Below the pieces are notes generated by a model. That model saw only the letters and a list, made by a program, of their open reading frames with translations. It had not been told where the DNA came from and did not search any database. Position numbers and translations under genes: made by a program. Source: Cellvibrio sp. KY-YJ-3 (GTDB lineage: Bacteria > Pseudomonadota > Gammaproteobacteria > Pseudomonadales > Cellvibrionaceae). From it: a DNA stretch of 64,000 bases. Below, in pieces: positions 1 through 15,700 of this stretch. The stretch lies in contig NZ_CP031727.1 of NCBI RefSeq assembly GCF_008806955.1, positions 2,804,001 to 2,868,000 of the forward strand, written 5' to 3'. Numbering within the stretch: position 1 is the first letter of the stretch; each line of letters starts with the position of its first letter.

Positions 1-3000
1 CACCACCACCAATTTCACTTTTCTCACCGGCGCCTCGCACCCCGCTGAGTTTGTGCAGCGCGCTGATGAATTAGGTTATGACGCGCTGGCGATTACCGAT
101 GAGTGTTCACTGGCTGGTGTCGTAAAAGCATTTGTTGCGGCGGAGGAGCTGGGGGTTAAATTAATCATTGGCAGCCGTTTTCGTTTATCCAACGGCATGG
201 ATCTAATTGCTATTGCGCCTTCGCGAATTGCCTACGCCGAACTTTCCGGTTTTATCACTCTGGCGCGGCGGCGTGCCGACAAAGGAACTTATGAAGCGCA
301 CTTTGACGATTTACGTTTTCGTTTGCGTCATTGCCTGATTATTTGGGTCGCAAAACTCAGCGACACCATTGTGGATGCAGTGGCAACTGAATTAACGAAT
401 GCGTTTAAAGACCGCTTATGGATTGGCATTAATCATCGGCTACAGGGGGGAGAGCAGCAGGATTTTGCGCGCTGGCAGTTGCTTGGTCGTGAAAAAAATA
501 TTCCACTGGTCGCCTGCGGTGAAGCCTTAATGCACAGTGCCGAGCGAAAACCCCTGCAGGATATTGTGACCGCTATTCGTCACAAAACACCCATTCAGGA
601 AATGGGCACCAAGCTGGAATTAAATGGTGAGGCTTACCTTAAATCCCTGCATCAGTTAGCGCGCCTCTATCCGCCGGAATTGCTTGCTGAAACCGCGGTG
701 ATTGCCGACCTGTGCCACTTTTCCATGAGTGAATTGCGCTACCAATATCCGCGTGAGTTGGTGCCCGGTAATCTAACGCCTATTGCACACCTGCGTTGTT
801 TGGTTGATGCCGGTAAACAGCAGCGTTGGCCACAGGGTGTGCCTGCTGAGGTTGAAAGTTTGTTGGAAAAAGAACTCGCGTTAATTGAAGAGCTGGAATA
901 TGAATATTATTTTTTGACGGTGCACGACATTGTGCGCTTTGCGCGCGAGCAGGGAATTTTGTGCCAGGGGCGCGGTTCTGCTGCCAACTCGGTGGTGTGT
1001 TATTGCCTGTTTATCACTGAAATTGCACCGGGTTTAATTGGTGTTCTGTTTGAGCGGTTTATTTCCCGTGAGCGCGACGAGCCGCCGGACATTGATGTTG
1101 ATTTTGAACACCAGCGCCGCGAAGAAGTGATTCAATATATTTATCAAAAATATGGGCGTGAGCGTGCGGCTATCGCGGCGGTGGTTATTACTTATCGGGG
1201 CAAAAGTGCGGTGCGCGATGTGGGTAAAGCCCTGGGCATGGATGAATCACTGCTCGATCATCTATCAAAAAATATGGCCTGGTGGGAGCGCGGGGCAGAT
1301 CTGCCAACAACGCTTAGCGGGATCGGCGTAAAAATGGACAGCGAGCTGCTCACACATTTTTTTAACCTGTTGCAATTAATACAGGGTTTTCCCCGTCACC
1401 TGAGCCAACACACCGGCGGCTTTGTTATTTCTGAAACCCGAATCAGTGACCTTGTGCCTTTGGAAAATGCGAGCATGGCCGAGCGCACTATTATTCAATG
1501 GGATAAAGAAGACCTTGAATCCATGCGTTTATTAAAAGTGGATGTACTGGCATTGGGCATGTTGTCGGCACTGCGGCGCGCGCTCGAATTAATCCACAGC
1601 TATGACTCGCGCATTCGTTCACTGCAAGACATTCCCCGGGAAGACAAAGACACCTATGCCATGTTGTGTCGCGGTGACAGTGTGGGGGTATTCCAAATTG
1701 AATCGCGCGCGCAAATGGCCATGCTGCCGCGCCTGCAACCGCGATGTTTTTACGATCTGGTGATTGAAATTGCCATTGTCCGGCCGGGGCCAATTCAAGG
1801 CGATATGGTGCACCCTTATCTTCGTCGTCGCGCCGGGTTGGAGCCAATCAGTTTTCCCAGCGACGCCATTAAAGACGTGTTGCTGCCCACGCTGGGTGTG
1901 CCTATTTTTCAAGAACAGGTGATGAAACTCAGTATGGTTGCCGCCGGGTTTACCGGTGGTGAAGCAGATCAATTGCGCCGCGCGATTACCAACTGGGGAA
2001 AACATTCAAAACTGTTGTTATTTGAAGATAAATTCAAAAATGGACTGCTCGCCAACGGCTACACCCAGGAGTTTGCCAATAATTTATTTGAACAGGTAAA
2101 AGGCTTTGGCGGCTATGGTTTTCCCGAGAGCCACTCCGCCAGTTTTGCGATTCTGTGTTATGTGTCCAGCTGGATTAAACGGCATCATCCCGCTGCGTTT
2201 TATTGCGCGTTGCTCAATAGTCAGCCCATGGGTTTCTACAGTCCATCACAATTAATTCAAGACGCGCGCCGCCACGGTGTACAGGTTCTGCCGGTGGATA
2301 TCAATCACAGCGATTATGAAAACACTCTCGTGCTGAGTGAAACCGGCGTGCGCGGAATTCGCTTGGGGTTTCTATTTGTGAATAAACTCAATACTCGCGA
2401 TGCACAGCAAATTCCTATCGCGCGCGGGAATTCACCGTTTACATCGCTAAAAGATCTTGCTCGGCGCACCTCGCTCAGCGATGCCGCCTTGGAAAGCCTG
2501 GCCTCCGCTGATGTATTGCGCACGCTAGCCGGTGATCGTTTTCAAGCGCGCTGGCAAGCGTCGGCGTTAATGCCGCACTCGCCACTACTGGACGAGAGTG
2601 ATCCAGCGGGTGATGAGTTGCTGATGCCGGGCCCCAGCCTTGAACAAAATGTGCTGGATGACTATGCCTCGGTCGGGCTGACCTTACGCACGCACCCCAT
2701 GGCGATTTTGCGACAGGAATTTCCGTTTAATAAATGCAAACGGTTTGCGGATTTGGTGAGTTTACGCCACAAGGGTTTTGTGCGGATTGCGGGAATAGTG
2801 ACCGGGCGGCAGCGGCCGGGCACGGCGAGTGGGGTTCTGTTTATGTCCCTGGAGGACGAAACCGGCACCAGTAATGTAGTGATCTGGAATTCAACCCAGC
2901 AGCGATTTCGCAACGAAATACTCACCGGTAAATTGCTCATTGTAAAAGGCACGGTTGAAATTCTCACCGAGGGCGTGAATGTTCCTATAGTTCATGTGAT

Positions 3001-3070
3001 CGCCGGGCACATTCAAAACGTAACTGATCGCCTACACAACCTCGCGTCAAGCTCGCGCGATTTTCATTAA
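1..3070 (+). CDS. dnaE2: Error-prone DNA polymerase DnaE2/ImuC, 5' end cut by the window
   Basis: This is a C-family DNA polymerase used for SOS-induced translesion synthesis. The reading frame is open from base 2, and the residues before the first GTG (base 53) already match the DnaE2 amino-terminal PHP region (NFTFLTGASHP, then ALAITDECSLAGVV). The true start is therefore upstream of the window and only a few residues are missing. The polymerase acid motif PDIDVDF is encoded near 1085-1105, the finger region follows, and an OB-fold-like segment (RIAGIVTGRQRPGTASG) lies near the C-terminus. Length is about 1,020 residues, normal for DnaE2. In this family imuA and imuB usually lie just upstream, but that DNA is not visible. 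The next gene, 13 bases downstream on the same strand, is another SOS-type nuclease. Confidence 0.95.
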   Translation, partial: TTTNFTFLTGASHPAEFVQRADELGYDALAITDECSLAGVVKAFVAAEELGVKLIIGSRFRLSNGMDLIAIAPSRIAYAELSGFITLARRRADKGTYEAHFDDLRFRLRHCLIIWVAKLSDTIVDAVATELTNAFKDRLWIGINHRLQGGEQQDFARWQLLGREKNIPLVACGEALMHSAERKPLQDIVTAIRHKTPIQEMGTKLELNGEAYLKSLHQLARLYPPELLAETAVIADLCHFSMSELRYQYPRELVPGNLTPIAHLRCLVDAGKQQRWPQGVPAEVESLLEKELALIEELEYEYYFLTVHDIVRFAREQGILCQGRGSAANSVVCYCLFITEIAPGLIGVLFERFISRERDEPPDIDVDFEHQRREEVIQYIYQKYGRERAAIAAVVITYRGKSAVRDVGKALGMDESLLDHLSKNMAWWERGADLPTTLSGIGVKMDSELLTHFFNLLQLIQGFPRHLSQHTGGFVISETRISDLVPLENASMAERTIIQWDKEDLESMRLLKVDVLALGMLSALRRALELIHSYDSRIRSLQDIPREDKDTYAMLCRGDSVGVFQIESRAQMAMLPRLQPRCFYDLVIEIAIVRPGPIQGDMVHPYLRRRAGLEPISFPSDAIKDVLLPTLGVPIFQEQVMKLSMVAAGFTGGEADQLRRAITNWGKHSKLLLFEDKFKNGLLANGYTQEFANNLFEQVKGFGGYGFPESHSASFAILCYVSSWIKRHHPAAFYCALLNSQPMGFYSPSQLIQDARRHGVQVLPVDINHSDYENTLVLSETGVRGIRLGFLFVNKLNTRDAQQIPIARGNSPFTSLKDLARRTSLSDAALESLASADVLRTLAGDRFQARWQASALMPHSPLLDESDPAGDELLMPGPSLEQNVLDDYASVGLTLRTHPMAILRQEFPFNKCKRFADLVSLRHKGFVRIAGIVTGRQRPGTASGVLFMSLEDETGTSNVVIWNSTQQRFRNEILTGKLLIVKGTVEILTEGVNVPIVHVIAGHIQNVTDRLHNLASSSRDFH

Positions 3071-3083
3071 TTTGTAAAAATAT

Positions 3084-4499
3084 ATGCTGAAATATTTCCC
3101 CATACCCTGTGCGATAGTGGATATAGAAACCACCGGTGGCAATGTGACCTATGATCGCATTATTGAAATCGGCATAGTGGAGGTCACGGAGCAGGGCGTT
3201 ACGCACTGGTCTACATTAATTAACCCACGCACGACCATTCCCGAGGGTATTCAGCGGCTAACCGGAATCACTAACGAAATGGCCGCCGCCGCGCCGTACT
3301 TTGAGCAAGTCGCCAAAGAAATAATACTGCGCCTGCAAGGTAAGTTATTTGTCGCTCACAACGTGCGTTTTGATTATGGTTTTATTCGCAATGAATTTGC
3401 TCGCCTTGCGTATCCCTACAAATCCAAACTCTTATGTACAGTCAGGCTGTCCCGCTTTTTGTATGCGGATTGCGAAGGTCACAGCCTGGAAAAACTTATC
3501 ACTCGCCACAATATTCGTGTAAGCCACCGCCACCGCGCGCTGGATGACGCCATCGCGGCCTATAAATTTATGGAGATTGCAGAACAGGAAAAAGGTGAGG
3601 CGAATATCAAGGCCGCTATTCAACATCAGTACCGCAAAGAGACTATGCCCGCCGGGTTTGATGCAAGCATTATGGATGGCCTGCCTAACTCACCCGGCAT
3701 TTATTATTTTTGGGGTGAGAATCAAGAGCTGCTCTATATCGGTAAAAGCATCAGTATTCGCAAACGTGTGCTCTCGCATTTTACTGCCGACCATAAATCC
3801 GCCAAAGAGATGAAAATTTGCCAGCAAACGCGCAACGTCACGTTTGAAAAAACCGCAGGTGAATTATCTGCGCTGATTTTGGAGTCCAAAAAAGTAAAAG
3901 CACTGCAGCCACTGTACAACCGCAAACTTCGCAGGGTGAGTAGCTTTCACACCATTCAATTGGAGGAGGGTAGCGGCGGCATACTCACGCCACAAATAGT
4001 TCCTGTGTCCCACATGCCAACCAACGGCAAGAAAATCTACGGCCTTTTCCCTTCCAAAATAAAAGCCAAACAAACCCTTCAAACCCTCTGCGACGAACAT
4101 CATCTTTGCTATCAAGTCTGCGGTATAGAAAATATCAGCAATAGGGCTTGTACCAGTCATCAACTCAAAAAATGCCAAGGTTATTGCGCAGGCAAACAAC
4201 ACGCCTTGCAACACAACGTCAAATTACTGGAAGGCTTGGCACTTTTGGCATTAAAAACCTGGCCCTATAAAGGCACCGTCGCATTGGTAGAAAAAAACCA
4301 AAGCGACGGCATGGAGCAGCATCTACTAATAAACAATTGGTGCATTCTGGGTGTTGCAGAAACCGCCGCAGACTACGAAACGATACTTGCCGACAATCCC
4401 TCGCTGGAAATCGATAAAGATATTTACCGTTATCTGGTAACCGCCATCTTCAAGAAACGGCAATCGCTGGCATTGGTGCCCTTGCTCTCAGGAACATAA
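3084..4499 (+). CDS. Fusion of DnaQ-like 3'-5' exonuclease and Cho/UvrC-type GIY-YIG endonuclease
   Basis: 471 residues with two nuclease domains. Residues 1-170 are a DEDDh exonuclease like the Pol III epsilon subunit: Exo I VDIETTG (Asp13, Glu15), Exo II HNVRFDYGF and Exo III HRALDDA. From about residue 200 comes a GIY-YIG nuclease: GIY at 205-207, LYIGKS, an Arg in IRKRVLSHF, and the catalytic Glu in LILESKKVKALQPLYN. The rest, to 471, resembles the C-terminal region of Cho-type proteins. Cho makes the 3' incision in nucleotide excision repair and is SOS-induced in E. coli. Similar exonuclease-UvrC fusions are known in actinobacteria. The gene lies 13 bases after dnaE2, so co-transcription is likely. 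I infer a role in damage processing linked to translesion synthesis. No strong Shine-Dalgarno sequence is visible. Confidence 0.85.
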   Translation: MLKYFPIPCAIVDIETTGGNVTYDRIIEIGIVEVTEQGVTHWSTLINPRTTIPEGIQRLTGITNEMAAAAPYFEQVAKEIILRLQGKLFVAHNVRFDYGFIRNEFARLAYPYKSKLLCTVRLSRFLYADCEGHSLEKLITRHNIRVSHRHRALDDAIAAYKFMEIAEQEKGEANIKAAIQHQYRKETMPAGFDASIMDGLPNSPGIYYFWGENQELLYIGKSISIRKRVLSHFTADHKSAKEMKICQQTRNVTFEKTAGELSALILESKKVKALQPLYNRKLRRVSSFHTIQLEEGSGGILTPQIVPVSHMPTNGKKIYGLFPSKIKAKQTLQTLCDEHHLCYQVCGIENISNRACTSHQLKKCQGYCAGKQHALQHNVKLLEGLALLALKTWPYKGTVALVEKNQSDGMEQHLLINNWCILGVAETAADYETILADNPSLEIDKDIYRYLVTAIFKKRQSLALVPLLSGT

Positions 4500-4531
4500 G
4501 AGCGTTTGGATTGTGGGTTGCAGCGTGGTGA

Positions 4532-5149
4532 TTACTTCTTGTTCCACTCTGCCAAAAACGTCTTCCGTTCGCGATCTGCTTTTTTGCGGGCAATGCAGTC
4601 ATCCACATGGTCATTGATCAGCCCCATGGCCTGCATAAAGGCATACACAGTAGTGGGGCCGACAAATTTCCAGCCGCGTTTTTTTAAGGTTTTGGAAAGC
4701 TCTACCGATTCCGGTGAAGTGGACTGCGATTGTGGTTTTACCTGCGCATTCGCGGGCAACGCATAACGCCACACAAAACTTGCTAGCGATCCCTCGGTGG
4801 CAACTAACTCCTGCGCGCAGCGGGCGTTATTAATGACCGCCTCAATTTTCCCCCGGTGCCGCACTATGCCTTCATCTTGCAACAGGCGCTCTACATCGGC
4901 GGGGGTAAAGCGGGCGATTTTATTGAAATCAAAATTCACAAATGCTTTACGAAAATTCTCCCGCTTCGCAAGAATCGTCCGCCAACTCAAGCCGGACTGA
5001 AAACCTTCCAAACTGATTTTCTCAAACAACCTGAAATCATCGGCAACGGGAAAGCCCCATTCGCTATCGTGGTACGCGAGGAATTCAGGCGCCGCACTGC
5101 ACCAACGGCAACGCAATTTCCCATCCTCAAATAACATGGCATCGCTCAT
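4532..5149 (-). CDS. tag: DNA-3-methyladenine glycosylase I
   Basis: 205 residues. Tag removes 3-methyladenine from alkylated DNA in the cytoplasm, starting base-excision repair. The N-terminal CRWC, the YHDSEWG motif (residues about 26-32), FEKISLEGFQSGLSW and the C-terminal GPTTVYAFMQAMGLINDH segment are typical of the family, including the Cys and His that bind the structural zinc. Length is slightly above the usual 185-190, partly from a Gln/Ser-rich insert near residue 140. The gene converges with the preceding nuclease gene, with only 32 bases between the stop codons, and is the last conserved repair gene before the AT-rich accessory region. Confidence 0.93.
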   Translation of the reverse strand: MSDAMLFEDGKLRCRWCSAAPEFLAYHDSEWGFPVADDFRLFEKISLEGFQSGLSWRTILAKRENFRKAFVNFDFNKIARFTPADVERLLQDEGIVRHRGKIEAVINNARCAQELVATEGSLASFVWRYALPANAQVKPQSQSTSPESVELSKTLKKRGWKFVGPTTVYAFMQAMGLINDHVDDCIARKKADRERKTFLAEWNKK

Positions 5150-5165
5150 TACTTATCTCCTTTCA

Positions 5166-5235
5166 GTCATACCCGCGAACGCGAGTACCCATAAAATATT
5201 CTTCCCGTCATACCCGCGAACGCGGGTATCCATAA
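5166..5235. repeat. Two direct copies of a short palindromic extragenic repeat
   Basis: Copy 1 spans 5166-5194 and copy 2 spans 5207-5235. Each begins GTCATACCCGCGAACGCG and continues to a TA(C/T)CCATA end. The core ACCCGCG-AA-CGCGGGT is a hairpin, perfect in copy 2 and with one change in copy 1. The copies differ at only two or three positions and are spaced 41 bases apart. Elements of this kind (translating to peptides such as YPRTRVSI) are scattered in many proteobacterial intergenic regions. They sit at the left edge of the accessory region, right after the tag start. Confidence 0.8.
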
Positions 5236-5978
5236 TATTCGTAACTTGGATTTATTGTGAAGGGCTAGTAATTCCTGTGCTCGCGGGCGAAATAAGCAGC
5301 GCAGCACTTCGTTATAGATTTTGTATTGTCATATTCCCGACAGTCTTGTGTGGTGCTTTGGCTTTCTTGTTTGTATCGTCAATATGATGGCAGGCTCATG
5401 GTTTGCAGAGTACAAAAGCCAATAACCTGTTGATTATAAAAATAATTATTCCCCAAACAGTCGCCGTTTCAGGCTGCTTACATCTAATGCGGTTATAAAT
5501 GTAATGTGATGTTATTCACAAATCACTTTGCATCGCTTATGCTCCAGAAAAACCAATGGGGCGACTTGCCAGCAAGGCTCACCCACAGGAACTATTTCAT
5601 CGGATGATGTAGTTACTCTCTCCGCTGTTTTAATTTCCTCGCTTGTGTTTTTCTGCATTCAAATTTTTGCGGAATCAGTACTTTGTGATTTTTAACCGAA
5701 GTGGATCTATATCGCAAAGCAAATAGCAGAAGGTCGTGTTAGTGCCCAAAGCAGACATTCGCGCGATAAAAGTTGGCCTTATAAAGAGATTTGATTGCTA
5801 ATACACTGCGGCCATCAACCTTTACGAGAAGGAAATAACTTGATTTTTGACGAAGCGCAATTGACGCTTATTAGTTAAACGACACCTAAATTTCCAATAT
5901 GAAATGAGTTTAGGGTTGCGCTATCGATGGACTTAGGTGGATATCAAGTTGCAAGTAAAAACTGAGGAAAATGGAATT
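5236..5978. other. 743-base stretch without a convincing gene
   Basis: No reading frame here has a family match, a good ribosome binding site or sensible composition. The only motif noted is GCCCAAAGCAGACATT at 5745-5760. It matches, in inverted orientation and 14 of 16 bases, a motif beyond the right end of the operon (11413-11428). Composition becomes AT-rich from about 5400. A promoter for the operon starting at 5979 should lie here, but I could not single one out. Confidence 0.6.
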
Positions 5979-6983
5979 ATGAAAATAACAATTCTTCCGG
6001 CTCGATACGGTGACAGCATACTTTTTGAACTAGAAAATAATGATAAGAAGTTTTTAGTTGATTGCGGATTCAAACAGACATACAGCAGAGAGTTAAAAAA
6101 ACTGACCTCCGAAGTGGATTTTATAATTTTAACTCATGTTGACGAGGATCACATTAATGGAGTTTTTCCATTGCTTGAAGATTATCCTAAAAAATTTAGT
6201 TTGGAAAAGGTCTATATAAACACTCCTGAATCTTACGCAGCTCCTGCTACGAATAGCGGAGAAATCTCAATTCGCCAAGCAATTACAATTGAACAACTAT
6301 TATTAGATAAATCTATCCCCTACCACAGTCTTCTTCAAGGTGATCGGGTAATTATCCAGGATGATATTTGGTTGGAAATAATATCTCCTACAAGCGAAGA
6401 TGTGAATTATTTTAATTCAATGTACCGCACCGTTAAAGCTGATTGGATAGCGGAAACAGAAATTTCGATAAATGAAAAAATCGAAAACATGGAAACTTTG
6501 AGTCAGAAAAAAGATTCCTTCAAAACAAAGAAGGCTGATTTCGTGAATGCGGCTTCTATTGCCTTCATACTAAAATTTAAAAATAAAAAACTTCTTTTCC
6601 TAGGAGATGCTCATCCGGAAACGATAACGGAATACCTTAAAAAGGAAGGATACAGTACCCAAAATAAATATGTTTTTGATTACATAAAGCTTTCTCACCA
6701 TGGAAGTATAACTAGTATTTCCAATGAATTTATATCCCTTATAACATGCAACAAATTTATCTTTAGCACTAATGGTGGGAAATCTAAAAGCCGTCACCCT
6801 AGCCGAGAGTTAATAGCAAAATTGGCATTGAATATAGAGAGGGCAGAAGCAGAAACTTTAACTTTTCTATTTAATTATCCAGTGGAGGAAATTACTAATA
6901 GAAATGGAGTACTAGCAACCCAAGAGGAAATGGCGTTGTATCGTATAGAATTTGAAAACTGCCTAGAGATTCATTTGCAATGA
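5979..6983 (+). CDS. ComEC-type metallo-beta-lactamase-fold hydrolase, first gene of a putative ABC-3C-type system
   Basis: 334 residues. The start is ATG 5979, which has GAGGAA about nine bases upstream and gives the usual beginning MKITILPARYGDS; an in-frame GTG at 5937 lacks a binding site. Metal ligands are visible as HVDEDH (residues 53-58), then FLGDA, LSHHGS, an STN segment and a late HP motif. This is the ComEC/Rec2-like branch of the fold, whose members hydrolyse nucleic acids or phosphodiester substrates. No signal peptide or membrane segment is present, so it should be cytoplasmic. The stop overlaps the next start (ATGA), implying translational coupling with the protease. I infer an effector or regulatory hydrolase in a defence operon; the substrate is unknown. 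Composition is AT-rich compared with the housekeeping genes. Confidence 0.85.
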   Translation: MKITILPARYGDSILFELENNDKKFLVDCGFKQTYSRELKKLTSEVDFIILTHVDEDHINGVFPLLEDYPKKFSLEKVYINTPESYAAPATNSGEISIRQAITIEQLLLDKSIPYHSLLQGDRVIIQDDIWLEIISPTSEDVNYFNSMYRTVKADWIAETEISINEKIENMETLSQKKDSFKTKKADFVNAASIAFILKFKNKKLLFLGDAHPETITEYLKKEGYSTQNKYVFDYIKLSHHGSITSISNEFISLITCNKFIFSTNGGKSKSRHPSRELIAKLALNIERAEAETLTFLFNYPVEEITNRNGVLATQEEMALYRIEFENCLEIHLQ

Positions 6984-8095
6984 ACCATCCAGAAATTCTA
7001 CCGAAACTATGTGTTTGCATTTTTAACAAAAATGTATTCAGCGGAACGGGTGTACTGATACCTCATAACGATAAATATTACTTATTTACCGCAGCACACG
7101 TTCTATATGGACAATCTTGTTGTGATATTGAAACCACTGATTTAACGAAGTTTCAATTCATAATGGAAAGTAATGTTCACCTACACCTAATCCGGGTCGA
7201 AGGGGAACCACAATCTCAAAAGGAGATAGATGTAGCTGTTCTTGAAGTTGAGCCAAGCAGTCCTTTGAATGATCTACCAGTTGTAGCTCTTTGCGGTGAA
7301 ACTAACGCTCCTGGTCTTGAGTTTATATTTAGAGGAAGAAATAGGTCTACAAGCGGAGACTGCCGATCAATATGGCCATGCCACCTAGATACGCCATCAG
7401 ATACAAAATTTAAAATGAAAATCCCGAATGAGTTTTATACAAATGTAGATGGTGACTCTGGTGCTGAAGTTTTGCAAGGGTATTCGGGCAGTGGAATTTT
7501 CATAAACAATCACGACACCATCTATTTCGTGGGAATCGTAATTTCAGTTAGCTCTCACTCGTTTCCAGGAGTGAACTGCGTTCCCATTCAGATCATAAAA
7601 GAAAAGATTCTATATTCCGCAAATATTTCAGATTTTTATGGTTTTAACAAAATTCTCGGCGTAGCTGTTTCGCAGATTAGGAATGAGGTAACACAAGAAC
7701 TTATTAATCAAAGAAAGACTACCGTATACGGCGATGTTGAAAATCTTCAAAAGAAAATGAACATATTCTTAGCTGATTGGCAACCAAGCCATCTTGATGG
7801 ATTCATCAAAGATATAATGATCTGGGAAAAAATTGAACGAGAGAAAGTAGATAATAATAGTGACTACCGAGATAGGGTGAATGAAGCTAAAGCAGCGCTA
7901 GCTTCCGGTAATCAGACTTACATAGTGAAAGATGAGCATGAAGGCAATGTACGATTTCACAAGATCAAGGAAGAATTTAGAGCAGAAGTACAGCTGCATT
8001 TAAAAGGGACACCATTGGAACGAAACTCAACAGTAATCGCAAATGGAGAAATAGCAAGGCTTTTAGCGAACTGCAATCTGGATTTCAAGAAATGA
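6980..8095 (+). CDS. Trypsin-like serine protease with uncharacterised C-terminal domain, second gene of the putative ABC-3C-type system
   Basis: 371 residues. The N-terminal half is a chymotrypsin-fold protease: catalytic His40 in TAAHV, Asp84 in EIDVAVLE, and Ser169 in GYSGSG. There is no signal peptide, so it is probably an intracellular protease, as in other conflict-system trypsins. Residues about 235-371 are a separate, mostly helical and charged domain (SQIRNEVTQELINQR, then IWEKIEREKV, ending LLANCNLDFKK) that I do not recognise. In ABC-3C systems such C-terminal domains attach the effector to the small middle component, and that is my inference here. It overlaps the genes on both sides by four bases (ATGA at 6980-6983 and 8092-8095). 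The likely role is cutting host or phage protein after activation by the ATPase. Confidence 0.85.
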   Translation: MNHPEILPKLCVCIFNKNVFSGTGVLIPHNDKYYLFTAAHVLYGQSCCDIETTDLTKFQFIMESNVHLHLIRVEGEPQSQKEIDVAVLEVEPSSPLNDLPVVALCGETNAPGLEFIFRGRNRSTSGDCRSIWPCHLDTPSDTKFKMKIPNEFYTNVDGDSGAEVLQGYSGSGIFINNHDTIYFVGIVISVSSHSFPGVNCVPIQIIKEKILYSANISDFYGFNKILGVAVSQIRNEVTQELINQRKTTVYGDVENLQKKMNIFLADWQPSHLDGFIKDIMIWEKIEREKVDNNSDYRDRVNEAKAALASGNQTYIVKDEHEGNVRFHKIKEEFRAEVQLHLKGTPLERNSTVIANGEIARLLANCNLDFKK

Positions 8096-8526
8096 GTATA
8101 AATATTTCAATTGCTAATGACCTTTCAAAAGGCGCTCCAAGCAGCAGTATGTATCTGCATCTTTGTATCATATGTAGTGCTTTAAAATATTGCCGCGGAG
8201 CATCAAAAGGTATGACCTACTCCAAGCTGGCGTATATTTTCGACAAAACCATAGTCCTCGACGAAAATGCGATAACTTCATTCTCAACGCTAAAACCATG
8301 GTTCATAGGCGGCGACTTCAAAAAATCACTCGTAATTGCCGAGTCGCAATCCTTTGTTCTATTTGAAGAAGATCAAAAAGCAGGTATGAAAATATCAAAC
8401 ACTGATAAAGGAAACGAGTATGTCTCAAGTCTTGAAAATATGGATGTATTTCAAAACTACATCAGCTATCTAAAAAGAATGCAATTTACTGAAAAGAAAT
8501 TTGAAAAACCACTAATTAGGTGTTGA
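8092..8526 (+). CDS. Small predicted winged-helix protein, candidate ABC-3C middle component
   Basis: 144 residues with no catalytic motif. The segment CSALKYCRGASKGMTYSKLAYIFD (about residues 21-44, quoted in part) has the pattern of a helix, a Gly turn and a second helix ending in an acidic residue, as seen in the small winged-helix middle components encoded between effector and ATPase in ABC-3C systems. A beta-rich part follows (SLVIAESQSFVLFEED), then a C-terminal helix (YISYLKRMQF). It overlaps the protease gene by four bases and ends five bases before the ATPase gene. The assignment rests mainly on size, position and this motif. It could also be an unrelated adaptor or an immunity protein. 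Confidence 0.6.
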   Translation: MSINISIANDLSKGAPSSSMYLHLCIICSALKYCRGASKGMTYSKLAYIFDKTIVLDENAITSFSTLKPWFIGGDFKKSLVIAESQSFVLFEEDQKAGMKISNTDKGNEYVSSLENMDVFQNYISYLKRMQFTEKKFEKPLIRC

Positions 8527-8530
8527 CCAC

Positions 8531-10582
8531 ATGAAGATTGATAACGTGAGCGCTTTAATCAAAGCCCACACTCCAGAAGGGATTAAAGATTTTGGCTTTT
8601 CATTCGAATTTTCGGATGGATTAACCATTTTGACGGGCGACAACTCAAGCGGAAAATCTACAGTGCTTTCGTGTATCTATTATTGTTTAGGTTTAGAGCA
8701 ATTAATAGGAGGTAAAGGAGGTAATTCCTTAAGCCCTGCGCTGCATCAATCATTCATGTGGAATGGATTTACGCATCAGATTTACGAATCGAGGTGCTCG
8801 CTAGTCTTTACTGCTACCAATGGCCATCAATATACAGCAACAAGAAATATCAAAATTGATGAATCCACTAAATTTTACGAAATAGAAATATGGGATGGGA
8901 AAAGCCATTTTCCAAAATTCATACACTCGCCCCGTGATCATGGGGATCAAGGATTTTTTCAATGGCTGGCGGAAGTTAACAAATTAGAACTGTTTTCCGT
9001 TGAAGGAATAGAAAGTGAATCTAGCAAAACGCTATACATGCAAAATATATTTACATTGTCGTTTATCGAGCAAACAAAGGGTTGGTCAGATTTCTTTTCA
9101 ATGATGCCATCTTTTGGAATTAAAGATCCGAAACTAAAAGTGATTGAATATTGCCTGGGACTTAACTCCTTGAGCGTTAATGTAAAGCTGGACAGGTTAA
9201 AACAAGAAAAAAATGAAATAAAGCGAGAGTGGTCCAAAATCGTTGGTGTATTAGAAGAAAGGGCGCAAAAGTTACAGTTATATTTTTCTGACTTTGACCG
9301 CAAGAATCCCATCTCGCAGTCATATATAAATAAAATTTCCATTTTCTCAATTGATCAAAGTGAGAAAGAGATATCTCTTAAAGAGTATCAAGATAGACTG
9401 ACTTTGCTATTTGAAGATTCAGAGAAAAAGGTTGAATCCATAGGGAGCTCTCACATCCGATCAGAGTATGCTTTTCAATTGAAAGATGAGATCCAAGAAG
9501 GACTTAATAGATATATCGAAGAAGAACGTGAAGTATCATATGGGTATGAAGAAGAGCTAAAAAAATTCAATGACTATAAAGAAGCCCTAGCAAATGTCGT
9601 AGCTGACATGCAGGGATTTCAAGATATTCAAAAACTAACTACAAACCGAACTTGGGAAAAAATTACAAGGGCACATTGTCCTGTTTGTGATAGTAGCATT
9701 AGTAACAAGAGAGACGAGTTGTTGACCGATGAAAAGATTGGAAAATCAATGGCGTTTTTACGATCACAGAAAAATACGTACGAAAAATATATCGAGGCCT
9801 CATCAAAGGTCATAGAGCGATATGATGCCGCAATAGCTTTTTATAAAAAAAGCATTAGACTAAAAAGAGAGCAATTGGATAGTGTTTATTCTGATATTTC
9901 GGCACCATCTTTTCAGGCAATTAGAGCAGAGTTCGATGTTCAATCAGAGTTACGTCACAAACTTTCCGAGATAGATTCATTTATAGAGGCTTTTGACAGC
10001 TCCAAGGAAAAGATGAAATTGTATAGCGTTCAATTTGATTTGGCAGCCAAAGAAGAGAAAGAGTTGAAATCAAATATTGAATCTGATGAAGAGAAGATAA
10101 AGCAATTTCGGAAGATTTTTAGAGATCTGATAAAAGATTTCGGTTACCGCAGCAATGAAGTAACAGCGATCTCAATATCAGAAGATTCGAACAAAGGCCT
10201 TTTGCCAACGGTCTTCTTGGACAAGGAGCCTCAATATATTAGATTTGTTTCATCTGCTAGTGATTTTGTTAGGTCAATTTGGGCTTATTACATGGCTTTA
10301 TTAATTGAGGGCGTGCGTCATCCAGGATTTTTAATTATGGATGAACCTGGGCAGCATCAAATGAGACCAGACAGCATGAAGGAATTGATAAAGAAATCGG
10401 CAGGAATTGGTAAGCAAGTTATTTTGGCAATTTCACGCAGCCATAATATCCGTGATGAAAAAGTTAATATTTCTGAACTCCTTAAGGGGCTCCCTGCAAA
10501 TTCTTATGAGTTACATGATATTGATGGCGGAGCTGAATATGTGATTAAGCCATTGAATTCCGTAGAAACCGTGAGCCAATAG
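8531..10582 (+). CDS. SMC/Rad50-like ABC ATPase with zinc hook, ATPase of the putative ABC-3C-type system
   Basis: 683 residues. Walker A is GDNSSGKST (36-44). A long helical, coiled-coil region runs from about 205 to 545 and is broken by a CPVC zinc-hook-like motif (Cys383, Cys386). Near the C-terminus are a weak ABC signature (SSASDFVRS), Walker B LIMDEP (601-606) and a possible switch histidine in ILAISRSHN. The order matches SMC/Rad50-type ATPases, shortened to the size common in defence operons. Such proteins dimerise around ATP and often sense DNA ends or phage structures. The gene follows the small middle component by four bases and is the last of the tight operon; a 169-base gap follows. 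I infer that it is the sensor or switch controlling the protease and the metallo-hydrolase. Confidence 0.88.
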   Translation: MKIDNVSALIKAHTPEGIKDFGFSFEFSDGLTILTGDNSSGKSTVLSCIYYCLGLEQLIGGKGGNSLSPALHQSFMWNGFTHQIYESRCSLVFTATNGHQYTATRNIKIDESTKFYEIEIWDGKSHFPKFIHSPRDHGDQGFFQWLAEVNKLELFSVEGIESESSKTLYMQNIFTLSFIEQTKGWSDFFSMMPSFGIKDPKLKVIEYCLGLNSLSVNVKLDRLKQEKNEIKREWSKIVGVLEERAQKLQLYFSDFDRKNPISQSYINKISIFSIDQSEKEISLKEYQDRLTLLFEDSEKKVESIGSSHIRSEYAFQLKDEIQEGLNRYIEEEREVSYGYEEELKKFNDYKEALANVVADMQGFQDIQKLTTNRTWEKITRAHCPVCDSSISNKRDELLTDEKIGKSMAFLRSQKNTYEKYIEASSKVIERYDAAIAFYKKSIRLKREQLDSVYSDISAPSFQAIRAEFDVQSELRHKLSEIDSFIEAFDSSKEKMKLYSVQFDLAAKEEKELKSNIESDEEKIKQFRKIFRDLIKDFGYRSNEVTAISISEDSNKGLLPTVFLDKEPQYIRFVSSASDFVRSIWAYYMALLIEGVRHPGFLIMDEPGQHQMRPDSMKELIKKSAGIGKQVILAISRSHNIRDEKVNISELLKGLPANSYELHDIDGGAEYVIKPLNSVETVSQ

Positions 10583-10751
10583 TATTAGAAAAGTGAGATT
10601 ACATATTTCTCCCTAAACGGATTTTTAATAATTAGGGCAGCATAAATTAATAGATTTGTCTTTTGTGTTGATGGTTGAACTCCGAGCTATATATTGATAA
10701 AGCTAAATTTGGTTAAAGTACAAACTATCCAAGATAAAAGGCGGTACATAG

Positions 10752-11330
10752 ATGAATTACTTTAATTTGCCTTCCATCTCCAAAGAAATCATTAAAAGAG
10801 CTGCCATATCAAATATTGTATGTGTACCCATTGAACCTCAAATAGGATCTTTGCCGCTCAGTTGCCTGAAAAATGTGAAAAGTTATGTTGAGATTAATGG
10901 AGGCAACATTCAATTCGGTTGGATATTTTCCTGTCTCGGCAATGTTGTTTTGAAAAAAACAGCTCATGCAGTCGTGGCGCGAGATGATAAATCATTGCTT
11001 TGCGTGACACCAAACGAATACAAACTGGATAACTTAAATTTCTCTCCAGACAACTCCATTGAAGGTTTAATTAAAAATACTTTTCTACCCACGCATTTTG
11101 TAGCACTCGTTCAAAATAGATCTCTGGAAAATTTTCTAAGTCTAGAAAGGGAATTGGATCAGTTGAGATTAAATAACATAGGAATAGTATCAAGTGTAGA
11201 TGTACGAGAAATAGAACGTAGAGCGGCTGTTCTGTATCCTGAAATATTGGATCTTGCTAAAAAGCATACAGGCGGATACGACTATTGTTACTGCGGATCA
11301 GGAAGAAAAAGAAAAAATTGTTGTCGTTAA
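10752..11330 (+). CDS. Uncharacterised protein with C-terminal SEC-C zinc-binding motif
   Basis: 192 residues. The last 15 carry the pattern CxCGSGxxxxxCC (CYCGSGRKRKNCC), the SEC-C motif found at the end of SecA and of many small bacterial proteins, which binds one zinc ion. The preceding 175 residues match no family I know; they are mixed alpha/beta and have no membrane segment. A GGCGG-type ribosome binding site lies about ten bases before ATG 10752. The gene shares the AT-rich composition of the four-gene operon and lies 169 bases downstream on the same strand. It may belong to the same system or be an independent passenger. No transcription terminator is evident between them. Confidence 0.75.
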   Translation: MNYFNLPSISKEIIKRAAISNIVCVPIEPQIGSLPLSCLKNVKSYVEINGGNIQFGWIFSCLGNVVLKKTAHAVVARDDKSLLCVTPNEYKLDNLNFSPDNSIEGLIKNTFLPTHFVALVQNRSLENFLSLERELDQLRLNNIGIVSSVDVREIERRAAVLYPEILDLAKKHTGGYDYCYCGSGRKRKNCCR

Positions 11331-11678
11331 GCTGTTTTTCAAGCCGCAAGTACAAGTGACCATAATTTTATAGAAAGGAGTTATCTTGATGAGGATTTCG
11401 TCTTCTAAGTCAATGTCCGCTTTTGGCTGTTATGCGATGTAATTGATCTGAAGGTTTTTCAATGTACCCAGACTGAATCAGCTGGGCCTAAGGCAGAAGT
11501 ATAATTTCTATTTATTCGGGATAAAAATGAGCAAAAAGCCTTTTAGATCACCATTCTTAATCAATTGGCTGTAGGAACATTTAGTGGTTAATGGGTTTTT
11601 CTACAGCCTCGTTAGGTAATACTCGCTCAATCTTCACAAACGACCTTTATCCACAAGGGCATAATCAAGGACATATAT
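11331..11678. other. 348-base non-coding stretch with a repeat-like motif and an integron-like core site
   Basis: Three things are visible. (1) AATGTCCGCTTTTGGC at 11413-11428, the inverted partner of the motif at 5745-5760. (2) A 17-codon frame at 11389-11442 behind AAAGGAG, which I do not consider a gene because it runs through that motif. (3) An inverted repeat GGCTGTAG (11567-11574) / CTACAGCC (11601-11608), followed by GTTAGGT at 11611-11617, which fits the GTTRRRY core of integron recombination sites. Together they suggest an old recombination junction, but a full attC site is not evident. Confidence 0.4.
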
Positions 11679-12536
11679 ATGGATCATCCAGAATATTACG
11701 ATTTAGTAGAAGTATCTGATGCAAGTGCTAAGTTGGTTGCCGTTCCATGGGCGATGTTAGCGAAGGCCGGAGCCATGGAATTGGGGAAATATGCTGCAGG
11801 AAAGCTATTGTCATCAGTTCTAAAAGAATCAACGCTTACTAAAGCTGATGTTGCTAAAATCATCGCTGCTGCAGTTGATGAGATTAAGCGCCACATAACG
11901 AGAAGTCTGACTGAGCAAACCATACTTGAAGTGCGAGGGAAGGTTTCTGGTTGTCTTGACTTACTTAGTCAATTTTCTGAATCTCCTGAACACCCTCATC
12001 GACTATATGAGGCAGATACCCAAGCTCAATATGCAGTATCGATTTTGGAAGCTGTAGGAAGCCAAGGCATTACTGCATATGTATACGCAGTGAATGTGAA
12101 ATTGTTATGTGTTGCTGTATTGCGCAAACATCTCAACATTGAAGGTGAGGTTAGGAACTTTGAGAGAATTTATCGCCAAGCTGTCGCATTCATAGAAATT
12201 AATATAAGGGAGATTCGCTCGAGTCTTGAGTCTCGGATAGCAAAAGTGGGGATTATCAAAGATGATTACTTTGAACTTTCTTACGGATCTGGGGATATGG
12301 GCGGAGTAATTCAGACATGGAGTTCTGAGTTTACTGATAGCGGTCGCAAGTATAGTTTTTCTAGCCGAAAATCAGCCAAAGATGCGCGATTCAAAGCTGA
12401 AAGCGAAAGAGCTAAGATTATTTCGTTCTACAAAAAATCTGTTGCTGATTTCGAGTTAACGGTTACAAAACCTACCGCTGATGTTATTAAGCAATGGAGT
12501 GTGGCCATGGATCATATACGCAAGAATGAAAAATAG
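11679..12536 (+). CDS. Protein of unknown function, possible cassette-borne gene
   Basis: 285 residues, start ATG 11679 with AAGGA eight bases upstream. I do not recognise the family. The N-terminal part has a small-residue-rich, moderately hydrophobic stretch (AMLAKAGAMELGKYAAGKLL), followed by long amphipathic helices (ADVAKIIAAAVDEIKRHI, then AVAFIEINIREIRSSLESRI). The C-terminal third is Ser/Lys-rich and ends without a recognisable motif. No signal peptide is seen. An almost wholly helical soluble protein with a membrane-active or toxin-like character is possible but unproven. Three bases after the stop is GCCTAAC (12539-12545), and GTTAGGT lies before the gene (11611). These are the two core-site types of integron cassettes, although the far half of an attC was not found. 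Confidence 0.6.
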   Translation: MDHPEYYDLVEVSDASAKLVAVPWAMLAKAGAMELGKYAAGKLLSSVLKESTLTKADVAKIIAAAVDEIKRHITRSLTEQTILEVRGKVSGCLDLLSQFSESPEHPHRLYEADTQAQYAVSILEAVGSQGITAYVYAVNVKLLCVAVLRKHLNIEGEVRNFERIYRQAVAFIEINIREIRSSLESRIAKVGIIKDDYFELSYGSGDMGGVIQTWSSEFTDSGRKYSFSSRKSAKDARFKAESERAKIISFYKKSVADFELTVTKPTADVIKQWSVAMDHIRKNEK

Positions 12537-12664
12537 TTGCCTAACAAGCGACTGTGGTAACGAATCGGTAGATTCGGCATCAAAATCATTCTTCTCTTGC
12601 CGGGCAACCTATCACCAACGTCCGCAAATGGCCGTTTTGAGTCCTTCATCTTCCACCCCCTATA

Positions 12665-12694
12665 AATACCCAAGTATCCCTTGGGTATTTTTTT
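12665..12694 (+). terminator. Rho-independent terminator after the 285-residue gene
   Basis: A perfect 10-bp stem (12665-12674 with 12680-12689), five-base loop TATCC, followed by an unbroken T run to 12694. It closes the plus-strand transcription of the accessory genes before the two minus-strand genes that converge on it. Confidence 0.85.
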
Positions 12695-12729
12695 GCGGCG
12701 ACGTTTAGTTTTTGAGGAGGCGACGGCCT

Positions 12730-13392
12730 TTATAGTCTGAATTTTGCTAAATGAAAATGGCTAATTAAATTTTCAAATACCCTGCGTCCATCATTGCTGC
12801 TTACATTAAATTTATGAGGCGTTTCATCGGTGACTACGGATTCTGCGCCTCCATCTTTCAGTGCTTTATGCAGTGATTCCATTGGGATTTTTGGATTTTT
12901 AATATTGCTGAATACATGAAAGTTTAATATGCCTTGAACACCTAATAGCTTTGCGGCTTGAACAATTGCCTTGCAAACGACTTCATAAAGCTTTTGATTG
13001 ACGTTAACTATCGCGTCGCGGCCAATTTGGTGTTCATTTTCGACATTGAGATTTTTTACATAAATATCGCTAATTAAATCGGATGCCTTAACGTTGTAGC
13101 AACGCATGCCGATTTTTACGGCTGCAAAAATATCATCAGGTTTTTGGGCGTCTACGCCAAAAACCCAATAATCCTTGTCTATTTTCGCTGCCCATTTTTG
13201 TGGCGATACACTTTTATCTTTGAAACCCGATATGGAAATGCCGTGTTTAGACTTCCATACACTTATATCGTCATAGCAAGTTCTTAATACAAAATCTTTT
13301 TTGTCTTTGCCGTTGTTGAAAATAATATCTGCATCGGTTTTGTAGGCTGGGCTTCCTTCAGCAATCGTTAGAGCTCCTTTCTCTTTAGTCAT
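12730..13392 (-). CDS. Protein of unknown function
   Basis: 220 residues with no family I recognise. The protein is lysine-rich, has no signal peptide or membrane segment and looks mixed alpha/beta. A central part (KIDKDYWVFGVDAQKPDDIFAAVKIG) and a helical part (KLYEVVCKAIVQAAKLLGVQ) are the clearest secondary-structure blocks. GGGAG lies eight bases before the ATG at 13392, a good binding site. The start lies inside the end of the upstream gene (8-base overlap), so the two are translationally coupled and probably act together. The pair converges on the preceding plus-strand genes and belongs to the same accessory segment. Confidence 0.6.
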   Translation of the reverse strand: MTKEKGALTIAEGSPAYKTDADIIFNNGKDKKDFVLRTCYDDISVWKSKHGISISGFKDKSVSPQKWAAKIDKDYWVFGVDAQKPDDIFAAVKIGMRCYNVKASDLISDIYVKNLNVENEHQIGRDAIVNVNQKLYEVVCKAIVQAAKLLGVQGILNFHVFSNIKNPKIPMESLHKALKDGGAESVVTDETPHKFNVSSNDGRRVFENLISHFHLAKFRL

Positions 13393-13738
13393 TTTGATTA
13401 TCTCCCTCTGCGCCTTGCGCTAATGATTCAGACGTTCTGGCAAAAACATAACAGTCGCCTCCTTGCTCGCAAATTAGCCGGTTTGCATTGGTAATTTGTT
13501 TGCTTCTATTGGAACTGTCGTTAAATTTACTTTCTTCAAAGTGGCTAACATCAAAAATTTCAATTAATTCCATTTCCTCTTGTTGTAGAAAAGAATCGAA
13601 TTTCTCTTGGGCTGTTTGGGCTGAGTCAGCAGCAACTAGATAAACCCCAAGAATCCAATCAGATCCATCAATATTCATTGGGGAATAAGCAGTTAATGAG
13701 GCTTTGTGGTCAATAACCCAGATTTTATTACCATTCAT
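13385..13738 (-). CDS. Small protein of unknown function, coupled with the downstream gene
   Basis: 117 residues from the ATG at 13738, which has AAAGGA ten bases upstream; an alternative in-frame ATG at 13777 would add 13 residues but has a poorer binding site. The sequence begins MNGNKIWVIDHKASLTAYSP. It has an acidic middle (FLQQEEMELIEIFDVSHFEESK) and ends in a polar, low-complexity tail (AQGAEGDNQND). No catalytic motif, signal peptide or membrane segment is visible. It overlaps the next gene by eight bases. Function unknown; the tight pairing would suit an antitoxin/toxin or adaptor/enzyme pair, but nothing in either sequence proves this. Confidence 0.55.
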   Translation of the reverse strand: MNGNKIWVIDHKASLTAYSPMNIDGSDWILGVYLVAADSAQTAQEKFDSFLQQEEMELIEIFDVSHFEESKFNDSSNRSKQITNANRLICEQGGDCYVFARTSESLAQGAEGDNQND

Positions 13739-13987
13739 GGTGTGGTGATCCTTTGTTGTGATGTTTAAGAACGGCATGAATTCTACTATCCAACCCTTTA
13801 AAAAGAGTGAGGTGCTTCAAATTTTGTTTGTGCCTTGGAAATTTATCGCGGTTGGGTGTTTTTAAAAAAAAACAATAAAACCCCGTATTCCGCTAGGCTT
13901 CATACAGGCTACGCATAACCGAATAAATTAATTTTTAAGCTGTGTTGTTTGGGGTGAAGCAGAAGGGAAATACTACGAAGGAAAAAA

Positions 13988-14063
13988 TGGCGTCCCCGGC
14001 GGGAATCGAACCCACATCATACGCTTAGGAGGCATACGTTCTATCCGATTAAACTACAGGGAC
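13988..14063 (-). tRNA. tRNA-Arg (anticodon CCT), 3' CCA encoded
   Basis: Read on the minus strand, the acceptor GTCCCTG pairs with CGGGGAC. The anticodon stem TATGC/GCGTA holds loop CTCCTAA (anticodon CCT), and the T arm contains GGTTCGATTCC. The discriminator G is followed by an encoded CCA and then a T run (ATTTTTTCC) that may end transcription. 76 bases. This tRNA reads AGG codons, and its gene is a common integration site for islands. Here its 3' end faces the accessory region (lower coordinates). Confidence 0.95.
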
Positions 14064-14074
14064 GTGCGGGCGGG

Positions 14075-14080
14075 ATTATA
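14075..14080 (-). promoter_or_regulatory. -10 box of the tRNA-Arg promoter
   Basis: On the minus strand a perfect TATAAT is followed by a GC-rich stretch (CCCGCCCGC) just before the mature tRNA 5' end. A GC-rich discriminator is typical of stable-RNA promoters under stringent control. No good -35 box was found at the usual spacing. Confidence 0.5.
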
Positions 14081-14248
14081 TAAACAACCTCGGCAAAAAC
14101 CTATAGTTAATATTCGGTACCTTTTATTCGTTCAATAATTGGCCAATTGTTCCGGTGGAATAACGGGTTGGGTCTGCATCGACTTTGCGTGTGCTCAAGG
14201 TTAGTATTTGCGCTGGTTCACACACGCAAACGGAATGTACGATAACAA

Positions 14249-15700
14249 ATGATCATTGTCCCTACTGAAAAGTCCCTCGATTGGCGCCATGCGCCCCTTG
14301 TGCTGTGCACCTTGGTGTTTATCAATGTGATGGTGTTTTTCCTGTACCAAAGCAGTGATACCCCCAAAATTGTGGAGGCCATTAGCAGCTATCACGCGCA
14401 GGGCTTTATTCAGGACGAGTGGCCGATTTTTGAGAAGTACCTGGAGGAGCAGGGCGATGCGCAGTTGGAGGAGTATCGCCGCCAATATGCCAAGGCCGAG
14501 TACGACTACATAATTGCCGACTTGCTGATGCGCGAGGATTTTTACCACTACTTGCAAACCAACGTGCGCAGTTACCTCACGCCGGATCGTTTTGAGCAGT
14601 GGGTTACGGAGCGGGCGCGCTTGCATGGGCTGATTCAGTCGCTCAGTTATGTCGCCAATGGTTTGCAGGCCAATAAATTATCCATCCCCAGTTTTTTAAC
14701 CCACCAGTTTTTGCATGGCGACATTATGCATTTGCTGGGCAATATGTTTTTCCTGATTGTGTGCGGTTTTGCGGTAGAGGCGGCGATTGGGCATTGGCGG
14801 TTTTTGCTATTTTATTTGCTGTCGGGTGTGGGCGCAGGTTTTGCGCAGGTGGCGACGGATTGGACGAGTAGCCAGCCGTTGATCGGTGCTTCGGGTGCTA
14901 TCTCAGGGGTGATGGCCATGTACCTCGCGGTGTTTCGCTTTAAGAAGATCGAATTCTTTTATTGGTTCTTCTTTTTGGTGGGTTACTTTCGCGCGCCCGC
15001 GCTGCTGATTTTGCCGTTTTATATCGGCAAGGAAATTTACCAATACCAAACCGATACCGATTCCAACGTCGCCTTTATGGCGCACGCCGGTGGGTTTATC
15101 GCGGGTGCAGTATTAATTGGTGCGGCGTGGCTGCTGAATCGCTCGCTGTTTAATGACGCTTATATTAATAACGAGCAGGGTGTAGACCCAGCGCAAAAAA
15201 CCATGGCCGAGATTTATGAAGCCATCGAAAAATTCCGCTTTGAACGCGCACTGCAATTAGTGGATGGGCTTATCGCCGCGCAAGGCAATCAATTTGAGTT
15301 GGTGATGATTCGCTACAACCTGTTGAAAATTGAACGCGGTGCGGCGCTAAACCCAGCAGTGATTACACTGCTGACCTTGCCCTTACTCACACCGGAGCAG
15401 ATTAAAAAACTGGAGCGGGTGTGGGTGGATAACCCGGATGTACATGAATCCTTAACTGAAAGTGCCGCCCTAAAATTAGCCATGCAATTTGCGGCGCTGG
15501 AAAATCCGCGCGCGGCGGAGCAATTGTTTATCCAACTGACGCAAAAGGGCTGCACTAATCCCGCCATGAGTGTGTTGGCGACTAAATTGGCGGCAGCATT
15601 TTTGCGCTTGCGCGATATGACTAAACGCAATCACTACGAACAACTCGCAGTACAATTCTCTACAACCACCGCACAGGGAGCCGAGCGTGCATTACTGTAA
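14249..15700 (+). CDS. Rhomboid-family intramembrane serine protease with long extramembrane loop and C-terminal soluble domain
   Basis: 483 residues. Rhomboids cut membrane proteins within or next to their transmembrane segments. After a first membrane helix (VLCTLVFINVMVFFLY) there is a roughly 110-residue polar loop. The six-helix core follows: HGDIMHLLGNM, the catalytic Ser215 in GASGAISG and the catalytic His279 in AHAGGFIAGA. Residues about 310-483 form a helical, TPR-like soluble domain. The start ATG has only a weak binding site. The gene overlaps the next by 14 bases, so the two proteins are probably made together. It lies just across the tRNA from the accessory region, but its composition is like the host genes. 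Confidence 0.9.
   Translation: MIIVPTEKSLDWRHAPLVLCTLVFINVMVFFLYQSSDTPKIVEAISSYHAQGFIQDEWPIFEKYLEEQGDAQLEEYRRQYAKAEYDYIIADLLMREDFYHYLQTNVRSYLTPDRFEQWVTERARLHGLIQSLSYVANGLQANKLSIPSFLTHQFLHGDIMHLLGNMFFLIVCGFAVEAAIGHWRFLLFYLLSGVGAGFAQVATDWTSSQPLIGASGAISGVMAMYLAVFRFKKIEFFYWFFFLVGYFRAPALLILPFYIGKEIYQYQTDTDSNVAFMAHAGGFIAGAVLIGAAWLLNRSLFNDAYINNEQGVDPAQKTMAEIYEAIEKFRFERALQLVDGLIAAQGNQFELVMIRYNLLKIERGAALNPAVITLLTLPLLTPEQIKKLERVWVDNPDVHESLTESAALKLAMQFAALENPRAAEQLFIQLTQKGCTNPAMSVLATKLAAAFLRLRDMTKRNHYEQLAVQFSTTTAQGAERALL

Follow-up and report, generated by a model that had tools for sequence, protein, structure and literature searches.

Introduction

The Lamassu superfamily of defence systems includes the ABC-three-component (ABC-3C) systems, as set out in the part of a review drawn on here (PMC10586767). 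In these systems LmuA has its effector domain at the N-terminus, trypsin being one of those that the review names, and a C-terminal domain that varies and possibly serves for docking. LmuB is ~650 amino acids (aa) long with a zinc hook in many homologues, and LmuC is the middle component (PMC10586767). In this study we analysed a 64,000-nucleotide stretch of the genome of Cellvibrio sp. KY-YJ-3 (NZ_CP031727.1, positions 2,804,001 to 2,868,000), referred to throughout as the window. It carries a four-gene operon encoding a metallo-β-lactamase (MBL) fold enzyme, a trypsin-like protease, a 144-aa protein and an SMC/Rad50-like ATPase.

The pairing of an MBL with a trypsin domain is reported from Hachiman, AVAST, Lamassu and DRT systems in the sections of PMC12799240 (2025) used here. 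There the Hachiman MBL is described as a pro-nuclease in which two insertions appear to block the active site. Each insertion is cleaved after an Ile by the trypsin domain that HamA carries, and the cleaved MBL has DNase activity. In AVAST the step is the same: the MBL is cut on infection, cleavage having been seen at one loop (PMC12799240). We read the window operon as a Lamassu (ABC-3C) abortive-infection system with a two-step effector cascade, and give this reading a probability of about 0.8. On this reading the nuclease-protease cascade, hitherto tested in Hachiman and AVAST, would also cover a Lamassu lineage whose C-terminal domain and middle component are different.

Identity and gene content

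PADLOC models assign the MBL and the protease to LmuA and the ATPase to LmuB, and on sequence grounds the four genes are a Lamassu system of the MBL-plus-trypsin kind. The operon had been called ABC-3C-like in an earlier note made from the sequence alone; these matches bear that out, and the term is right because PMC10586767 places ABC-3C within the Lamassu superfamily. The ATPase has the SMC/Rad50-like character, length, hook and profile match of LmuB (Table 1). The protease has an N-terminal trypsin domain and a C-terminal domain common to LmuAs that are not proteases, for which a docking role is predicted. As in the gated pairs of other systems, the gene immediately downstream of the MBL encodes a core defence protein that bears a trypsin domain.

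All four open reading frames (ORFs) are intact. The MBL and protease genes, and likewise the protease and 144-aa protein genes, overlap by the 4 bases ATGA, and a 4-base gap precedes the ATPase gene, confirming the coordinates and junctions given in the earlier note. The MBL ORF is open upstream to a GTG at 5937, but its start was put at ATG 5979 because relatives begin at this inner Met. The catalytic motifs claimed from the letters are likewise all present: HVDEDH (residues 53-58) and SHHGS (residues 239-243) in the MBL, His40, Asp84 and Ser169 in the protease, and the CPVC hook in the ATPase. Among 26 aligned loci, H53, D55, D57, H58, D210 and H240 of the MBL and the three protease residues are invariant (26/26 in each case). 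The trypsin-like domain spans roughly residues 1-190, and the closest solved structure to the protease profile is PDB 9wh1, a HamA C-terminal-domain protein (residues 1-182, 6.1e-13).

Two neighbouring classes do not describe the operon. MComp1 and CTD4 found no match in the window proteins at E 1, so the system is not of the MC1/CTD4 subtype. The NCBIfam model Avs1a matches the window MBL at 3.4e-46, but its 157.7 bits lie below the curated cut-off of 420, and the neighbouring genes are a probable middle component and LmuB, which is not the AVAST type 1 arrangement.

The subtype itself is not new, as PADLOC models cover both enzymes and the pair in Lamassu is already in print. New here are the placement of the protease C-terminal domain, the LmuC link, a second background of C-terminal domain and middle component, the Walker B Glu and the candidate cut sites. 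We take 'Lamassu hydrolase-protease' to be a name for systems with an MBL and a trypsin-like LmuA, but found it in no paper; an open-licence PubMed Central search returned none joining 'hydrolase-protease' with Lamassu.

Table 1. Genes of the operon, in window coordinates
Feature	Position	Strand	Details
MBL-fold predicted pro-nuclease (LmuA hydrolase partner)	5979..6983	+	334 aa; PADLOC LmuA PDLC03854, 6.4e-77
LmuA trypsin-like protease with C-terminal domain	6980..8095	+	371 aa; PADLOC LmuA PDLC03855, 3e-30
Probable LmuC / middle component, divergent	8092..8526	+	144 aa; placed by position and clade; weak winged-helix signal in C-terminal half of family
LmuB, SMC/Rad50-like ATPase with CPVC zinc hook	8531..10582	+	683 aa; PADLOC LmuB PDLC03863, 2e-71

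Conservation and distribution

To scan for synteny, an LmuB alignment of five rows was run against a single genome of each species, and the best 80 of 202 confirmed candidates gave 79 distinct loci (numbered with the prefix L below). The order MBL, protease, small gene, LmuB was found in 26 of the 79, the small gene in three of these having been missed by profile and identified by eye. In a further 51, LmuB stands with an LmuA-type effector of ~300 aa and almost always with LmuC; two are incomplete. Two MBL-protease members were part of the query alignment, so the counts should not be read as frequencies. An identical gene order is present on plasmid pSBAL17501 of Shewanella baltica BA175, where PADLOC calls LmuA, LmuC and LmuB in the last three genes and the MBL matches that of the window (tblastn, 5e-20). 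Close relatives of the operon occur in Marinomonas rhizomae (L024) and Oceanospirillum beijerinckii (L021), whose MBLs are 53% identical to that of the window. The four-gene order predicted to recur in other genomes is thus conserved.

The LmuB tree includes 25 of the 26 loci, which belong to Pseudomonadota, Bacteroidota and a single bin of the Bacillota. Lamassu systems with an MBL-trypsin pair also occur on viral contigs, two with LmuB matches of 682 and 692 aa (L128, L129) and one with a 312-aa LmuB ORF only (L133). In genome samples centred on that of the window, a search with the window protease found it in 1 of 369 genomes of the class, its own, and the MBL was found at 1e-30 or better in 3 of 194 genomes of the order, its own included. 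When the window MBL was used as a single query against genome contigs, none of 30 pattern matches was a confirmed relative; it was the LmuB alignment that succeeded.

Two uncultured members have near-alike operons (L019, 5971-8058; L020, 5971-8055). In L019, which is counted among the 26, LmuB is split into two ORFs, through either decay or an assembly error.

A C-terminal domain with two effector heads

The C-terminal domain of the protease (about residues 237-370), which the earlier note could not recognise, is common to other LmuA effectors of the window's LmuB lineage. A profile built solely from 48 non-protease LmuAs matches the C-terminal part of all 28 proteases of the lineage (16-49 bits). 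The window protease scores 19.4 bits (E 2e-5 for 1000 sequences), with the best of 560 shuffles at 8.3 bits. None of five proteases from outside the lineage was matched (three from long-ATPase Lamassu, one from Hachiman and one from Runella). In a profile-profile comparison (hhalign) of 26 proteases with 16 non-protease LmuAs, residues 237-370 align with 172-310 over 134 columns at 98.6% (E 1e-15). Given these profile and profile-profile matches, we conclude from sequence comparison that one C-terminal domain is carried by two different effector heads within this LmuB lineage.

At the sequence level this is evidence that effectors have been exchanged within a single Lamassu lineage, in a direction that it does not reveal. 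In a tree of LmuB (86 rows, quick method), the 27 MBL-protease rows can be separated by one branch, but its support is just 30, and which effector head came first is therefore not decided.

The probable middle component and LmuB

The 144-aa protein is probably a divergent LmuC. It is called so because of its position and clade rather than its own profile score. The window clade (five rows, the others being 46-49% identical) matches the profile of 17 middle components from non-protease loci at 83.7% (E 8e-6, 115 columns), and four close relatives of the window protein score 14-16 bits against a profile of such middle components. The PADLOC LmuC model PDLC03871 matches 36 of 43 aligned middle components, the window protein not among them. 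The earlier note had called the protein a winged-helix protein; the middle-component role is made probable by the clade link, while sequence lends the fold weak support, in the form of Pfam HTH_45 in 2 of the 43 members and matches of the family to the PDB proteins Sso10a and AspA (4e-4 to 3e-3), both of which we take to be winged-helix proteins.

A CPxC hook is present in LmuB of all 28 MBL-protease loci and all 51 other loci. The window LmuB keeps the catalytic Glu of Walker B (LIMDEPGQ). Pattern matching finds this Glu in 27 of the 28 MBL-protease LmuBs, and the remaining one (L035) reads DEP by eye. The same pattern occurs in 48 of the 51 others and was not found in three. Elsewhere, Walker B reads DQ in L007 and L008 and DE in L151, and neither was found by pattern in L009 and L152. 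This lineage differs from the general description in the portion of the review consulted, where the Walker B Glu of LmuB is generally Gln (PMC10586767).

Candidate cut sites in the MBL loops

Alignment of the window MBL suggests one Ile-Ser cut site in each of two loops, GEI|SIRQ in loop 1 and TEI|SINE in loop 2; both are inferred sites. Ile occupies site 1 in 19 of the 26 Lamassu MBLs and Val in the other 7; at site 2 there are 17 with Ile, 8 with Val and 1 with Ala, giving Ile or Val in 25/26. The L025 and L030 clades are of the Val type. The two sites carry the same letter (Ile/Ile or Val/Val) in 24 of the 26, the exceptions being L035 and L038.

The covariation of the two loops was scored across all systems. 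A set of 79 MBLs was reduced to 70 by de-duplication at 90%, and 45 of these have an adjacent trypsin ORF. Under the rule scored, loop 2 should repeat the letter of site 1 with S, T, G or A directly after it. The rule fits 41 of the 45 (permutation mean 25.4; none of 20,000 permutations reached 41), and beside Ile and Val the pairs include Thr (L007, L009, L101, L134, L152) and Met (L008). The permutation overstates the support, because a tree built with the loops left out needs five changes of the site-1 letter, with one independent pair on well-supported branches per trait.

In a phylum sample, an MBL match at 0.001 was obtained in 132 of 398 genomes, mostly short partial matches to other MBLs; the best 30 loci were taken, and test MBLs had to reach 1e-20 and 290 aa. 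The held-out set comprised 12 later MBLs, 7 of them with a trypsin ORF, and became six when L199 was dropped as identical to an earlier protein. The rule fits three of these six (L195, L196 and L200, of which L195 is 84% identical to L036) and fails in L201, L202 and L203. Among the held-out MBLs with no trypsin ORF in the fetched DNA, three of five fit and two fail. As a general law the same-letter rule was consequently rejected, and because 3/6 is no better than the shuffled rate, the idea is retained as a lead for Lamassu rather than a rule.

A broader conjecture, which we regard as tentative and rather doubtful, is that both loops copy one cleavage dipeptide and drift jointly (Ile, Val, Thr, Met), so that the specificity of the protease can be read from them, and that the LmuA C-terminal domain is a socket into which trypsin and other ~300-aa heads are swapped. 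If covariation holds within Lamassu, the specificity of an intracellular protease could be predicted from the sequence of its nuclease. Should the whole conjecture be true, Lamassu would be a source of natural orthogonal protease-pro-nuclease pairs, each with a predicted cut letter.

Related MBLs were also seen in other settings. On a Lysinibacillus plasmid (L150, 5986-10319) one immediately precedes the gene of a NACHT-domain protein, and no trypsin ORF was recognised next to it; this may be a system of the NLR type that has an activator of its own. Another (L100, 294-2562) is preceded and overlapped by an ORF starting with a GGGFRAG motif, presumably patatin-like. A viral contig (L130, 5986-11993) carries an MBL, a 495-aa trypsin protein, an 863-aa protein of unknown type and a 340-aa ORF that we assume to be integrase-like. 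A Runella plasmid (L010, 2763-12125) has a cluster of three MBL-fold genes, a SEC-C domain gene and a 1363-aa serine-protease protein.

Proposed mechanism and alternatives

By analogy with other Lamassu systems, LmuB and LmuC would hold LmuA through its C-terminal domain and sense a DNA structure derived from the invader. Upon sensing, LmuA would be freed and oligomerise, and its trypsin domains would become active; for Lamassu with a Cap4 head, the addendum of PMC12409362, as far as it was used here, reports that LmuA is released and forms a homo-tetramer on activation. Following the Hachiman precedent, the protease may then cleave the MBL after Ile in two loops predicted to lie over the active site, here at the candidate sites. 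The freed MBL nuclease would degrade DNA indiscriminately, leading to cell death or arrest. We infer each of these functional steps; the genes, the catalytic residues, the C-terminal domain common to LmuAs, the conserved operon and the paired candidate sites are observed.

The earlier note had suggested that the two enzymes are sequential or alternative effectors. Sequential action is probably right, and is already published in outline, for Hachiman and AVAST and as a model for Lamassu, whereas alternative action is disfavoured. If the enzymes were independent or alternative effectors, the protease would attack cell or phage proteins and the MBL would separately attack nucleic acid, neither activating the other. 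Such an arrangement would sit well with the full conservation of catalytic residues in both enzymes, with the absence of a recognisable second site from L099, L129 and L130, all of which have a short loop 2, with a further miss in L103, and with the failure of the same-letter rule in half of the held-out set. It accounts poorly for an MBL gene placed directly upstream of the protease across several unrelated systems, both in the loci here and in those covered by the sections of PMC12799240 used, or for the Ile or Val that, with a small residue after it, is kept in the two loops of most Lamassu MBLs. Moreover, the protease cuts and activates the Hachiman MBL, and the AVAST MBL is cut on infection (PMC12799240). 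We consider independent effectors unlikely. The MBL might instead be a regulator or signal hydrolase, for example one that degrades a nucleotide signal, with the protease as sole killing effector. Weak profile similarity to MBLs of the Apyc1 and RNase Z types is in line with this, but the best defence-model matches are LmuA, RTasMBL and Avs1a, the best solved relative is ComEC in the PDB (5.7e-11), and the relatives HamM and CanC become DNases according to the same sections of PMC12799240, which makes a signalling role very improbable. Scarcely credible, in our view, is a chromosomal module for DNA repair or maintenance. The Rad50-like LmuB has a zinc hook and keeps the Glu of Walker B, as such a module might; against this stand the patchy distribution, with the protease found in its own genome only among 369 of the class, the related four-gene sets on conjugative plasmids, the presence of this kind of system on viral contigs, and a G+C content about 9 to 17 points under that of the neighbouring genes.

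Several results weigh against the two-step cascade within Lamassu. The pairs tested in PMC12799240 are those of Hachiman and AVAST; in the sections used here, Lamassu is named among the carriers and included in the drawing of the model. The same-letter rule misses L099, L103, L129 and L130, and L129 is itself a Lamassu locus; the three held-out failures point the same way. In the profile check proposed by the earlier note, the MBL, protease and ATPase matched Lamassu models, but the 144-aa protein found no PADLOC or NCBIfam match and, in Pfam, DUF3892 alone at 0.19 and nothing at 0.01. It scores 5.1 bits against the profile of middle components from non-protease loci, less than the best of 560 shuffles (6.7 bits).

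Genomic setting

The four operon genes have a G+C content of 34-38%, compared with 47-51% in the three genes to the left and 51% in the rhomboid gene to the right. The low-G+C stretch continues beyond the operon to about 13,900, with four further ORFs within it. A tRNA-Arg gene (13988-14063) lies 3.4 kb downstream of the operon with these four ORFs in between, so of the AT-rich composition and tRNA adjacency claimed earlier, the former stands and the latter does not. The tRNA 3' end (24 bases, up to 6 mismatches, both orientations) has no copy in window positions 1-13960. The longest words common to the left flank (5151-6000) and the tRNA region (13701-14250) are 10 and 11 bases, where 50 shuffles reach 13. 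In one genome of the same genus the right flank is syntenic only from 14244 onward, the left flank having been sought by one protein only; because synteny starts only there, a clean empty site could not be shown. The low G+C fits a transferred system, but with no att repeat found and no clean empty site shown, integration at tRNA-Arg was rejected as unproven.

An ORF of 192 aa (10752-11330, +) begins 170 bases past LmuB. It has a C-terminal zinc motif of the SEC-C type (CYCGSGRKRKNCC) and matches phrog_37148 at 5.7e-9. As a fifth component of the system it was rejected, because a motif pattern run over the loci then fetched gave matches only in its own genome and L137, and found the motif beside none of the other Lamassu loci among them. 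Three low-G+C ORFs occupy 11679-13777, one of 285 aa on the + strand and two of 220 and 130 aa on the - strand, overlapping by 8 bases. They gave no confident family match in PADLOC, Pfam, NCBIfam or phrog searches and are possibly other island cargo.

Comparison with known systems

The closest described systems are the PADLOC Lamassu systems of the MBL-plus-trypsin kind, whose models PDLC03854 and PDLC03855 are matched by the window MBL and protease and whose gene order is that of BA175; the window 144-aa protein is too divergent to match the PADLOC and Pfam middle-component models. AVAST type 1 (Avs1a, Avs1b) likewise has an MBL plus trypsin pair. Its protease domain lies in a protein of ~1900 aa (annotated Avs1b in two loci and serine protease in one) with avs1c downstream, and no SMC-like ATPase was seen in these loci, whereas the window has LmuB. 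Protease-HamA Hachiman (HamMAB; PDB 9wh1), as described in the sections of PMC12799240 used, likewise has an MBL pro-nuclease encoded upstream of a core protein that bears a trypsin domain, but that core is HamA with the HamB helicase, and that of the window is LmuB with a probable LmuC.

Within Lamassu, the MC1/CTD4 loci of S. baltica OS195, Priestia aryabhattai and Providencia rettgeri, annotated as ABC-three component, middle component 1, have the same order of MBL, protease, middle component and ATPase. Pfam, run on L007 and L009 of these, finds MComp1 in the middle component of L007 and CTD4 on both proteases. The ATPases of these systems are 1035-1060 aa long compared with 683 aa in the window, and the C-terminal domain and middle component also differ. 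In the LmuB tree, five MC1-type rows fall beyond a branch marked 100*, on long branches whose joins may be false. Because LmuB, the middle component and the C-terminal domain of the MC1 type differ from those of the window lineage, sequence comparison places the MBL-trypsin pair in at least two quite different Lamassu backgrounds. This agrees with the statement in the sections of PMC12799240 considered here that every system except DRT acquired the pair more than once.

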